A DNA stretch of 64,000 bases from Bosea sp. BIWAKO-01 (GTDB lineage: Bacteria > Pseudomonadota > Alphaproteobacteria > Rhizobiales > Beijerinckiaceae): contig NZ_BCQA01000001.1 of NCBI RefSeq assembly GCF_001748145.1, positions 2,506,501 to 2,570,500 of the forward strand. The letters are read 5' to 3'. How positions within the stretch are numbered: position 1 is the first letter of the stretch; the number at the start of each line of letters is the position of its first letter. The notes under the pieces were generated by a model. That model worked only from the letters and a program-made list of their open reading frames with translations, was not told the origin of the DNA and ran no database searches. Position numbers and translations under genes: made by a program. This document shows, one piece after another, positions 34,860-39,783 of the stretch.

Positions 34860-35306
34860 ATGACGCGCCTCGGCCTCGCCACAGCCCTTCTGCTCGGACT
34901 GGCTTCCTCCGGGCCGGGCGCGGCGCTGGAGCCCTACGCCGTCGTCGGGGACGCGATTCCGAAGGCTCTCGGCGCGCTTGCCGGCGATGCGGCGCGAGGG
35001 CAGGTCATCCTGCGCGACCGGGAGCGCGGCAATTGCCTGATCTGTCATCAGGGGGCGGATCCGGCAGAGCCGTTCCAGGGCGCGATAGGGCCGCCACTGG
35101 CCGGCATCGGGACCCGGCTCGACGCCGGGCAGATCAGGCTGAGGCTGGTCGATTCATCGCGGCTCAATCCGGAGACGGTGATGCCGCCCTATTACCGGAC
35201 CGAGGGCTTGCACGATGTCGCCCCGGTCTATCGTGGCAAGCCGGCTCTATCGGAGCAGGAGATCGAGGATGTCGTTGCCTATCTCGCCACTCTCAAGACA
35301 TTCTGA
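34860..35306 (+). CDS. soxX: Sulfur-oxidation cytochrome c subunit SoxX
   Basis: A 148-residue periplasmic cytochrome with signal peptide (ending near GAALE). Its haem is bound by Cys59 and Cys62 with His63 (CLICHQ), and Met108 in TVMPPYY is the second ligand, as in SoxX. It forms the SoxXA complex that attaches the sulfur substrate to the SoxYZ carrier. It starts 10 bases after the hydroxylase stop and overlaps soxY by 38 bases. Confidence 0.88.
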   Translation: MTRLGLATALLLGLASSGPGAALEPYAVVGDAIPKALGALAGDAARGQVILRDRERGNCLICHQGADPAEPFQGAIGPPLAGIGTRLDAGQIRLRLVDSSRLNPETVMPPYYRTEGLHDVAPVYRGKPALSEQEIEDVVAYLATLKTF

Positions 35307-35763
35307 GTCCGCCCCGAGTCGGCGTGACATCGTCGTCGGTGCTGCGGCCGGGATCGGCCTGGCCAGCCTGCCGAAGGCGGCGATGGCTGCGACGCAGCCG
35401 GCGCTGCCGGAGCTGATCGCGCGGCTGACCGATGGCGCAGTGCCGGTGCGCGGCAGGATCACGCTGGAGATTCCGGCGCTCGTCGAGAACGGCAATTCGG
35501 TCGATACGAGGATCGTGGTCGAGTGCCCGATGACGGAGGCGGACCATGTCCGCTGGATTCATCTTATCGCCGAGAAGAACCCGTTCCCGGACATGGCGCG
35601 GTTTCATCTTGGGCCCCGCTCCGGCCGCGCCGAGGTCGCGACCACCTTGCGGCTGGCGACCTCGCAGAAGGTCACCGCCGTCGCTGCGCTCAGCACGGGG
35701 AGCTATCTCATGAGCGATGCCGATGTCGTCGTGACGTTGAGCGCCTGCATCGACGGCGGATGA
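35269..35763 (+). CDS. soxY: Sulfur-carrier protein SoxY with unusual C-terminus
   Basis: A 164-residue SoxY. The start at 35269 lies inside soxX and has AGGAG 7 bases upstream. It gives an export signal (SAPSRRDIVVGAAAGIGLASLPKAAMA, Tat-like with two arginines). The mature part has the SoxY immunoglobulin-like core (RITLEIPALVENGNSVDTRIVVECPMTEADHVRWIHLIAEKNPFPDMARFHLGP). SoxY normally ends GGCGG with the substrate-carrying cysteine; here the end is ACIDGG, with Cys160 followed by Ile-Asp-Gly-Gly. The swinging-arm cysteine is thus present but in an altered tail. Confidence 0.88.
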   Translation: MSLPISPLSRHSESAPSRRDIVVGAAAGIGLASLPKAAMAATQPALPELIARLTDGAVPVRGRITLEIPALVENGNSVDTRIVVECPMTEADHVRWIHLIAEKNPFPDMARFHLGPRSGRAEVATTLRLATSQKVTAVAALSTGSYLMSDADVVVTLSACIDGG

Positions 35764-35774
35764 GGGGAGATCCG

Positions 35775-36098
35775 ATGGCATTCAACGCCCGCATCAGCAT
35801 GCCGACGGAAGCGCGCGCCGGCGAGATCATCGAGATCCGCGTTCTGACGCGGCATCCGATGGATCGCGGCGGCCAATCCGACGGCAAGGGGGGCACCGTT
35901 CCACGGAAAATCCTGAACCGGCTGACGGCGACCTATTCCGGGGAACCGATCTTCCGGCTCGACATGTATACGGGGGTCTCGGCCAATCCCTTCGTCTCCT
36001 TCACGACGCGCGCGGTCGAGACCGGCGACATCGTCTTCGAATGGCGCGAGGATGGCGGAGCGGTCTTCACCCGGACGGCCAGGCTGACGGTGACGTGA
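35775..36098 (+). CDS. soxZ: Sulfur-oxidation carrier partner SoxZ
   Basis: A 107-residue SoxZ: ARISMPTEARAGEIIEIRVLTRHPMDRGGQ, then PRKILNRLTATYSGEPIFRLDMYTGVSANPFVSFTTRA and the closing FEWREDGGAVFTRTARLTV. These are the family's typical features, including the 'HPM..G' and 'F.W.D..G' segments. It has no signal of its own and would be exported bound to SoxY. It follows soxY by 11 bases and precedes soxA by 10. Confidence 0.9.
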   Translation: MAFNARISMPTEARAGEIIEIRVLTRHPMDRGGQSDGKGGTVPRKILNRLTATYSGEPIFRLDMYTGVSANPFVSFTTRAVETGDIVFEWREDGGAVFTRTARLTVT

Positions 36099-36108
36099 GC
36101 ACCGGGCG

Positions 36109-36867
36109 ATGTGGTTGAAGCTGGCTTTGGGACTCCTGATCGCGACGCTTGGCACGGCCGCGGGCGGCGAAGAGGTCACCTCGGGGAGCGCCTTCCTGTC
36201 GCCCGATCTGCGCCGACAGCAGGATGATCCGACGCGCAACCCGGCCTGGTTCTGGGTCGAGCAGGGTCAGGAACTCTTCAGCCGCAAGCCAGGGACCAGC
36301 CAGGCCTGCAGCCAGTGCCATGCCGAGCCGGAGAAGGGTCTGCGTGGCGCGGCGACGCATTATCCGCAGGTGGATGCCGGCACCGGGCAGCTCCTGAATC
36401 TCGAGGGACGCATCGAACAGTGCCGCGTGGAGCGGCAGAAGCAGCCAGCCTTCGGCTATGAGAGCGGTGAACTTCTGGCACTGACGGCCTATGTCGCTTC
36501 GTTGTCCCGGGGCTTGCCGATGGACGTCGAGACCCGGGGTCCGGCACAACCCTTCTATGACGCGGGCAGGGCCTTTTTCGAGCGCCGCCAGGGGCAGCTC
36601 AACCTCTCCTGCAAGCAATGCCATGACGGGCTGGTTGGCCAGAAGTTGCGTGGCGACACGATCAGCCACGGCACGGGGACCGGCTATCCGGCCTATCGGC
36701 TGGAATGGAACGGCGTCGGTTCGCTGCATCGGCGCCTGCGCGCCTGCTCGCTCGGCGTCCGGGCGACGCAGTTCGACTATGGCGCGCCGGAATATCTGGC
36801 GCTCGAGCTCTATCTTGCCGGGCGTGCGCGCGGCCTGCCAATCGAGACGCCGGCCATGCGGCGTTAG
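36109..36867 (+). CDS. soxA: Dihaem sulfur-oxidation cytochrome SoxA
   Basis: The 252-residue protein has a signal peptide (ending near TAAGG) and two CxxCH haem sites: Cys67-Ser-Gln-Cys70-His71 and Cys168-Lys-Gln-Cys171-His172. Cys105 (IEQCRVERQ) is the expected axial ligand of haem 1, and Cys213 (LRRLRAC-S region) the modified cysteine ligand of the active haem. It is therefore the dihaem SoxA form and pairs with SoxX. The stop codon TAG is part of the dispersed repeat that follows. No soxB, soxC or soxD lies downstream. Confidence 0.9.
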   Translation: MWLKLALGLLIATLGTAAGGEEVTSGSAFLSPDLRRQQDDPTRNPAWFWVEQGQELFSRKPGTSQACSQCHAEPEKGLRGAATHYPQVDAGTGQLLNLEGRIEQCRVERQKQPAFGYESGELLALTAYVASLSRGLPMDVETRGPAQPFYDAGRAFFERRQGQLNLSCKQCHDGLVGQKLRGDTISHGTGTGYPAYRLEWNGVGSLHRRLRACSLGVRATQFDYGAPEYLALELYLAGRARGLPIETPAMRR

Positions 36868-37966: not shown

Positions 37967-39079
37967 TCAGCCCTTCCTGTCGTCGGCCTTTCCATTCTTG
38001 GCCCGGTCGCCGCGGCCCTTCGGCTTCGTCCGGTTCCGGTAGCTCGCATTGCCCAGGCCGGTGCCGATGGTCAGCACCGCCCAATGCTCGACATCCTGCA
38101 TCGAGGGCATCTCGCTTAAGCCCTGGATGACGGCGTCGTTATGCATCACGACCGTCGTCTCGTGTCCGCCGATCTCGGGGACCATCTCGCGGACGCTCTC
38201 GACCAGGTTGAACCGGCTGCTCTGCCAGTTGCCAGGCAGATTCTGCGCCCCGCGGTCGATCGAGCCGTCCCGCTCGATCAGGCCGGGGCAGCCGACGCCG
38301 ATGAAGGGAGCAACGCGAAGGCCCGCCTTGCCGGCCTGCTTGATTTGGCCATCGAGCATCTTGCCGAGCCGCTTGATTGCGTCGTCGCGGTTGGTCTCCT
38401 CGTCGGCGTGGCGCCAGAGTTCGGATTGCCAGACCTTGGCCTTGGCGAGGTCCGGCGCCTTGTCCTGGCGCAGCTCGACGATGCCGGCGCGAATATTGGA
38501 GCCGCCGATATCGACGGCGACGAGGCTGTCATAGGCCTCGAAGATCCATTTCGGCGCAAGATGGGCGCTGCCGACCAGTCCCGCCTCGTCGGGATGATGG
38601 CGGATCGGCACAAGGTCGATACTATGTCCGTCCGTCTGCAGGATGATGCCGGCGCGTGCGATCGCGAGTTCGCCGACGCGGCTCTGGCGGAACCCGCCGC
38701 CGACCACGATACGCTCGACGGCGCTCCAGGGCTTCAGCCTGGCGAAGCGGCGAATGACGAAGGCCAGAGACTGGGCGTAGCGTTCGATGGCGCTGAGGAT
38801 GAGAGCCGCCTCGCGCGGCTCACCTTCGCCGAGCAGCGCGTCGAACTCTTTCTTGCCGATCTTGTCGGAGTCGACCGTGATCGGGTCGTCGCCGGTCCGG
38901 CGCAGATGCTCGCGAAGGGCGTCGAGATGGTCCAGGAATGCGCCACGCTTGGCCTTGTCACCGACGAAGCCGTCCTCGTCGCGAACCTCCAGATTATAGC
39001 TGGTGACGACAACCGAGGGCAGTTCGTCCACTCCGTGAGGACCGCCCGCGCGTGCTTTCACCGTCGTTTCCAATGCCAT
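37967..39079 (-). CDS. ROK-family kinase-like protein with permuted halves
   Basis: A 370-residue protein with all main ROK/ASKHA motifs but in swapped order. Residues 80-175 carry the text that normally ends a ROK protein (RYAQSLAFVIRRFA, IVVGGG at 124-129, DEAGLVGSAHLA at 164-175). Residues 186-350 carry the normal beginning (VAVDIGGSNIRAG, GVGCPGLIER, MHNDAVIQG with the catalytic Asp315, LTIGTGLG). The zinc motif CxCGxxGCxE is absent. ATG at 39079 has GGGGA upstream. I infer a sugar-kinase-like or regulatory role; there is no helix-turn-helix. Confidence 0.8.
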   Translation of the reverse strand: MALETTVKARAGGPHGVDELPSVVVTSYNLEVRDEDGFVGDKAKRGAFLDHLDALREHLRRTGDDPITVDSDKIGKKEFDALLGEGEPREAALILSAIERYAQSLAFVIRRFARLKPWSAVERIVVGGGFRQSRVGELAIARAGIILQTDGHSIDLVPIRHHPDEAGLVGSAHLAPKWIFEAYDSLVAVDIGGSNIRAGIVELRQDKAPDLAKAKVWQSELWRHADEETNRDDAIKRLGKMLDGQIKQAGKAGLRVAPFIGVGCPGLIERDGSIDRGAQNLPGNWQSSRFNLVESVREMVPEIGGHETTVVMHNDAVIQGLSEMPSMQDVEHWAVLTIGTGLGNASYRNRTKPKGRGDRAKNGKADDRKG

Positions 39080-39303
39080 GTTCCGCTATCCCCGTTCTGT
39101 CTTCTGAAGGGAACGGCGTCGGTGGTCCCAGGGTTCCACCGGGAGCCGGCTGTCGCGTCATGCGATGAACGGCGCATGACGCCCCTGCACAGAGGGCGCG
39201 GGGAAAACCACGCCCAGCGATTGACCACACGCGGTCTCTTCCCTTCCATTGCCGGCGAGGCGCGGCGGCCGACGCGCCCATGGGTGGATTCCGGGGATGT
39301 GCG

Positions 39304-39783
39304 ATGCTTGAGTTTCTTGTGCGTGCGGTGCTGATCGGCGTCGGTGCGACCCTCCTGTTCGATCTCTGGGGCCAGTTCTTGAAACGTGCCTTCGGCTTGC
39401 CTGCCCCGAACTGGGCCATGACCGGGCGCTGGTTCGGCCATCTGGCGCAAGGTCGACTGGCGCATGAGGATATTGGCCGCTCCGAGCCGGTGGTGAACGA
39501 ACATGCCCTCGGCTGGATCGCGCATTATCTGATCGGCATTCTGTTCGCGGCGGTCCTGCTGGCGATCTGGGGGCTCGACTGGGCCCGCAATCCGAGTCTC
39601 GCACCCGCGCTGATCGTCGGTCTCGTCACGGTCGGCTGCGGCTGGTTCATCCTGCAGCCGGGCATGGGCGCCGGGATCGCGGCGTCGAAGAAGCCGAATG
39701 CCGGCCAGATCCGCGCCATGAACATCGCGGGCCATATCGTCTTCGGCGTGGGGCTCTACGGTTCGGCGCTGTTGCTGCGCTGA
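39304..39783 (+). CDS. DUF2938 membrane protein
   Basis: A 159-residue protein with four membrane segments (LEFLVRAVLIGVGATLLFDLWG, HYLIGILFAAVLLAIWGL, APALIVGLVTVGCGWFILQPG, NIAGHIVFGVGLYGSALLL) and the conserved loops PNWAMTGRWFGHL and QPGMGAGIAASKKPNA. These match DUF2938, a family of unknown function. The ATG at 39304 is chosen over 39280 because it puts the hydrophobic segment at the start. Confidence 0.82.
   Translation: MLEFLVRAVLIGVGATLLFDLWGQFLKRAFGLPAPNWAMTGRWFGHLAQGRLAHEDIGRSEPVVNEHALGWIAHYLIGILFAAVLLAIWGLDWARNPSLAPALIVGLVTVGCGWFILQPGMGAGIAASKKPNAGQIRAMNIAGHIVFGVGLYGSALLLR

Follow-up and report, generated by a model that had tools for sequence, protein, structure and literature searches.

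The 64,000-nucleotide window analysed here (the whole stretch from Bosea sp. BIWAKO-01, contig NZ_BCQA01000001.1, positions 2,506,501 to 2,570,500) contains a single open reading frame in which the two halves of a ROK-type kinase stand in exchanged order. This swapped order is retained in relatives from other soil and root-nodule bacteria, in which several lines of evidence suggest that it serves survival under stress. A first-pass annotation of the letters alone had proposed the swap and had given no strand; the frame lies on the minus strand and is laid out as follows.

37967..39079, minus strand: open reading frame of the permuted ROK-type kinase, 370 amino acids, ATG at 39079
38537..39037, minus strand: half assigned to the ROK C-terminal lobe, residues 15-181, with conserved HG..LPSV.VDSYN, GFVGD, a helix, IVVGGG (124-129) and DEAGLVG (164-170)
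38525..38554, minus strand: short linker, residues 176-185, from the former ROK C-terminus to the ROK N-terminus, placed by alignment and secondary structure
38024..38524, minus strand: half assigned to the ROK N-terminal lobe, residues 186-352, with DIGGSNIR, CPG, QNLPGNW, HNDA and GTGLGN

The motifs quoted in the first-pass annotation were all exactly where it had put them: IVVGGG at 124-129, DEAGLVG at 164-170, VAVDIGGSNIRAG at 187-199, CPG at 264-266, HNDA at 313-316 and GTGLG at 339-343. Plus-strand open reading frames overlapping the gene were taken as shadows of a GC-rich gene. The Pfam ROK profile (PF00480) aligned residues 187-351 of the query with its positions 2-143 of 294 (29.9 bits, cut-off 22.9) and matched at E ≤ 0.01 in all 38 members of alignment A1, which comprises the query and 37 of its 72 homologous loci. 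The NCBIfam NanK model aligned residues 98-175 weakly (E 0.0034) with its positions 214-286 of 288. At the level of sequence, the ROK match of the frame is not due to chance. A PF00480 search of the whole genome omitted the kinase gene, although hmmscan scored the same gene above the Pfam cut-off; the omission is probably a limit of that first look. The permuted genes of two other genomes (G071 and G055) were reported by the PF00480 genome search through their N-lobe half only.

Profile-profile comparison bore out the exchange of halves. The family profile in native order matched an ordinary ROK profile twice and in exchanged order, first with columns 73-178 over ROK 201-299 (score 50.6) and then with columns 188-324 over ROK 4-114 (score 46.3). 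Aligning the rejoined order against ROK, a check put forward with the original claim, gave a single full-length match of columns 2-333 to ROK 4-299 (score 80.7, probability 97%), and in global mode the rejoined family profile reached 98.3%. Of 34 ROK loci fetched for this test, 29 supplied open reading frames and the five without 'GGTK' were dropped. Shuffling the columns of the N half (one shuffle) or reversing it lowered the rejoined score to 48; on its own, the intact N half matched the ROK C lobe at 90%, whereas its shuffled or reversed versions stayed below 1% against the ROK profile. As aligned, the ROK N-terminal lobe is represented by residues 186-350 and the C-terminal lobe by residues ~73-178.

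Structure prediction, likewise put forward as a check, modelled both halves as the two ROK lobes, and the full-length model is a confident two-lobe prediction (predicted local distance difference test, pLDDT, 90; predicted template-modelling score, pTM, 0.87). The model of the C half (residues 184-351) fits residues 1-145 of the Staphylococcus aureus N-acetylmannosamine kinase (6q26), and that of the N half alone fits residues 141-286, such that the two halves tile an enzyme that is itself in normal order; the top matches in a structural search with the N half were ROK C lobes. The earlier judgement that a folded kinase is plausible is upheld by this model together with catalytic motif residues that are invariant in the 38 members.

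We also located the break by aligning 10 rejoined members together with 8 ordinary ROKs. Here GTGLGNARFTNR aligned with the GTGxGGG strand, HGA..LPSV lay over GExGHxPLP, and GFVGDRAS lay over CGxxGCxExxxSG. By these pairings, the new termini are best placed in the beta-hairpin after the second phosphate loop, following GTGLGNAxxxNR, which agrees with the position just past the GTGLG loop proposed before. The zinc motif is absent, as had also been observed: no CxCG..GC occurs in the permuted kinase, and residues 13-182 hold no cysteine in 26 of the 38 members, one in 10 and two in 2. The claim that all ATP-site elements remain stood for the motifs. All 38 members keep the adenosine GGG, the two phosphate loops and the Asn-Asp pair, and the DxGGT and GTGxG loops and the catalytic ND are likewise invariant throughout, bar S/T at residue 194; the Asp of HND, residue 315, is presumably the catalytic base. 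Lost along with the zinc site, however, are the Glu and His with which the ExGH motif of ROK proteins binds the sugar.

The available portion of PMC2742894 terms the zinc motif GHx9-11CxCGx2G(C/H)xE characteristic of all ROK members, and it lists N516, D517, E566, H569 and E588 as sugar-binding residues of the GNE kinase, H569 being a zinc ligand as well. Two of these five are kept in the permuted family, as the invariant N314 and D315, and Asp41, invariant in 38/38 members, may replace E588 (the Glu of GCxE). Inserts additional to ordinary ROKs lie around W222/R231 and W118. The sugar pocket, as judged from the alignment, is remodelled.

The protein shares with the ordinary ROK kinases (PF00480; NanK, NagK, GlcK) both lobes, the DIGGT, PG, NDA, GTGxG, IVxGGG and D..GLxG motifs and, as predicted, the fold of each lobe. 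The ordinary enzymes differ in their normal lobe order, zinc motif and ExGH, none of which the permuted kinase has, and in reading GTGxGGG where it reads GTGLGNA; the human GNE N-acetylmannosamine kinase domain (2yhy, 3eo3), for example, has all five residues that bind the sugar, an HC3 zinc site and normal order. The family is filed as a permuted, zinc-less relative of ROK and not as an ordinary member, because neither the zinc motif nor the ordinary lobe order was found when looked for.

A search for homologues, suggested earlier as a gauge of spread, found the swapped order well beyond this genome. A protein-to-DNA scan of representative genomes gave 72 loci whose best segments are 48-95% identical. 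None of the 72 covers less than query residues 20-345, and the order is the same in each; at one of them (L034) the longest open reading frame covers residues 72-354 only. The kinase was present in 34 of the 61 nearest genomes, including 32/37 of its own genus, and in wider sampling in 12/289 genomes of the class and 22/398 of the phylum (own genome counted throughout). A few members are betaproteobacterial (Pseudorhodoferax). The gene is broken or split in G030 and in one copy in G035. Four genomes (G012, G025, G558 and G574) carry two permuted copies each, the second being ~70% like the query in G012 and G025. Among plasmids, 205 records matched, mainly from Rhizobium (111) and Sinorhizobium (79), and in 204 of them one place covers at least 80% of the query. 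Among the plasmid matches listed, the name given is 'ROK family protein' or 'hypothetical protein', or there is none; annotation hides the rearrangement because such names are silent on it and Pfam sees only half of the protein.

In the 289 genomes of the class, the rejoined profile recovered the 12 genomes with the permuted kinase, where the two halves matched separately, and one weak partial match (G235, E 4.1e-4). No full-length unpermuted close relative was found among these Alphaproteobacteria, where at most seven candidates were scored per genome and absence is not proof. A tree of 45 members took in Hyphomicrobiales (Rhizobiales), Reyranella and Rhodospirillales-like lineages; Pseudorhodoferax stood on a long branch, and deep support was weak. 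Because every member seen is permuted, the permutation event is older than all of them. Circular permutations usually arise when a tandem duplicate loses both of its outer ends, a plausible origin here too; no intermediate of this route was found among the members. To our knowledge, it is uncommon for a natural circular permutation to be kept throughout an entire family.

Upstream of the gene lies a predicted promoter motif of the kind shared by targets of the EcfG/RpoE2 general stress response (GGAAC-N16/17-CGTT):

39112..39137, minus strand: EcfG-type promoter motif GGAAC-N17-CGTT, with 32 bases between motif and ATG

The excerpt of PMC3892343 gives GGAAC-N16-CGTT as the motif of Rhizobium etli EcfG1. 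We counted a strict form (N16/17 spacer) and a relaxed form (GGAAC-N18/19-TT) in a fixed upstream window. The strict form occurred in 24/72 loci compared to 18/4200 random stretches, and the relaxed form in 47/72 compared to 41/4200. The relaxed form was present at all 37 Bosea-type loci, with 36 different spacers, and at 10 of the 35 others; it also preceded the gene in nine of nine plasmid relatives, seven of them in its strict version (for L160, one of these relatives, the gene start was a guess). The chromosomal Bradyrhizobium loci L035, L036 and L072 have GAAAC or GCAAC variants by eye. The Bosea genome itself encodes NepR, with a strict motif ~210 bases before the NepR match. Based on these motifs, the permuted kinase gene is likely to be under EcfG control in Bosea and Rhizobiaceae, and less so elsewhere. 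This stress promoter motif of EcfG type, which part of the family conserves, is new here.

Altogether we read the gene, with a probability of roughly 0.8, as encoding a circularly permuted, ROK-type, ATP-dependent sugar kinase of the alphaproteobacterial stress response. We consider it nearly certain that the protein derives from a ROK-type kinase by natural circular permutation. The former ROK C-terminal helix would have been joined to the former N-terminus by a linker of ~10 residues, and new termini would have opened in the beta-hairpin following the GTGxG phosphate loop. Because the ROK lobes are two RNase-H-like domains flanking a cleft, lobes in exchanged order could still bring DIGGT, GTGxG, the adenosine GGG and the catalytic Asp to one ATP site. 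The enzyme would transfer a phosphoryl group from ATP to a sugar and would be expressed within the general stress response under sigma EcfG/RpoE2; since its expression would belong to that response, the substrate would most likely be a sugar that takes part in stress metabolism, glucose or one derived from trehalose being the first candidates. The protein is probably an active kinase, and a role as a stress-response kinase is the best-supported one, but a substrate linked to glucose or trehalose is a tentative suggestion that may well prove wrong. The same genome encodes a separate glucokinase-like protein (L096, G000:C1:3601008-3601391) with DIGGTNSRL near its start, and as such the permuted kinase is probably not its sole glucose-type kinase. 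A broader view, to which we give a little under even odds, is that the internal pseudo-symmetry of the actin-hexokinase-Hsp70 (ASKHA) fold enabled a long-lived, family-wide permutation of its two lobes and that the outcome is a zinc-free stress kinase with a substrate outside those of known ROK enzymes.

Several results weigh against this reading. Rejoining the single query brought no gain, TIGR00744 scoring 36.7 bits in either order (29.5, i.e. 7 bits lost, with the N half shuffled), and PF00480 was unlisted for the rejoined query, though the C half alone scored 26.4 bits. A rejoined five-sequence profile gave no full-length match against PDB sequences (best E 0.016), nothing in the aligned permuted kinases corresponds to GNE E566 and H569, the promoter motif is genome-wide no commoner than a reversed control, and it is missing at all loci labelled Reyranella (4) and Pseudorhodoferax (3). 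Further comparisons were mixed: of five rejoined members compared with Pfam, the best stretch lay in the C lobe for L057 only; of two rejoined proteins compared with NCBIfam, L052 was matched full-length (27.4 and 23.1 bits); and the native 38-row profile found ROK and hexokinase chains among PDB sequences, mostly by the N lobe (best E 1.1e-4). Because the single-sequence and PDB-sequence tests are weak, it is the family profile and the models that carry the proof of permutation.

The loss of the zinc ligands and of two of the five sugar-binding residues would also suit a permuted ROK fold that does not phosphorylate sugar and instead senses a ligand or has a regulatory part in the stress response, and some ROK family members are regulators according to the part of PMC12696579 available. 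We consider such a protein unlikely, since the Asn-Asp pair and both phosphate loops persist in 38/38 members, which is unexpected once catalysis is lost, and no helix-turn-helix family was among the profile matches. Somewhat less likely still is a permuted kinase that takes its phosphate from polyphosphate, or passes it to an unusual acceptor or to one other than a sugar; the remodelled pocket is in keeping with it and the polyphosphate-glucose phosphotransferase model matches 32/38 members at E ≤ 0.01, but the query scores only 20.4 bits, far under the curated cut-off of 250, and the match is limited to the N lobe (residues 188-346). The N half could instead come from a family unrelated to ROK and have been fused to a ROK N lobe, its IVVGGG being coincidental: taken alone it has no Pfam match, a NanK match of only E 0.084 and weak Foldseek matches. 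Its profile match to the ROK C lobe nevertheless disappears on shuffling or reversal, its leading structural matches are ROK C lobes and no other family matches the N-terminal 180 residues convincingly, which makes this origin very improbable. An assembly artefact, or two broken adjacent ROK genes read as one, found no support and is refuted by the identical order in 72 loci of different species and in 204/205 plasmid records.

The P-loop fold of circularly permuted GTPases is unrelated to that of ROK-type kinases. These GTPases (cpRAS, YqeH/YlqF type) share with the permuted kinase a nucleotide-binding fold with conserved motifs rotated, as described in the portions available of PMC2430557 and PMC2741578. 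Among the papers listed from the open-access literature, none described a ROK or ASKHA kinase in permuted form; subscription papers and databases of cellular predicted structures lay outside this scope, and prior notice there is possible. The rhizobial ROK proteins in the accessible parts of PMC11387232 and PMC6200981 are other genes, and a look-up by candidate Sinorhizobium meliloti locus tags gave no result. The family offers a natural test of giving up lobe order and the zinc site while the catalytic motifs stay, and the permuted kinase is a testable stress gene in Bosea, Bradyrhizobium, Rhizobium and Sinorhizobium.

Within the window, the neighbours of the kinase gene are an esterase gene and a divergent one, and they say little on function:

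39280..39783, plus strand: DUF2938 protein, divergent neighbour that may be unrelated to the kinase system

The neighbourhood comparison of the 72 loci found no neighbour common to most lineages. The widest group outside Bosea is DUF892 at 7/35 loci (Pfam-checked in L040 and L044), which adjoins the kinase in Hyphomicrobium and Ancylobacter; the next, at 6/35 loci, is a Crp-like regulator where checked (L064), and rplU stands beside the kinase at three Bradyrhizobium loci (Pfam-checked in L036). Among eight annotated plasmid regions, the trehalose-phosphatase gene otsB is divergent beside the kinase in four from Rhizobium and one from Shinella (L158, L162, L163, L165 and L166), an osmoprotectant-system peptidase adjoins it in Sinorhizobium meliloti and a ferritin-like protein in Bradyrhizobium, and the region of Sinorhizobium sp. 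B11 has no evident stress gene next to it. Stress-gene neighbours (otsB, DUF892/ferritin-like) in several lineages are likewise new here. Elsewhere in the window, genes for cytochrome c, SoxY and a SoxA/TsdA-type cytochrome stand in a row at 34860-36867 and form a Sox-like sulfur oxidation cluster.
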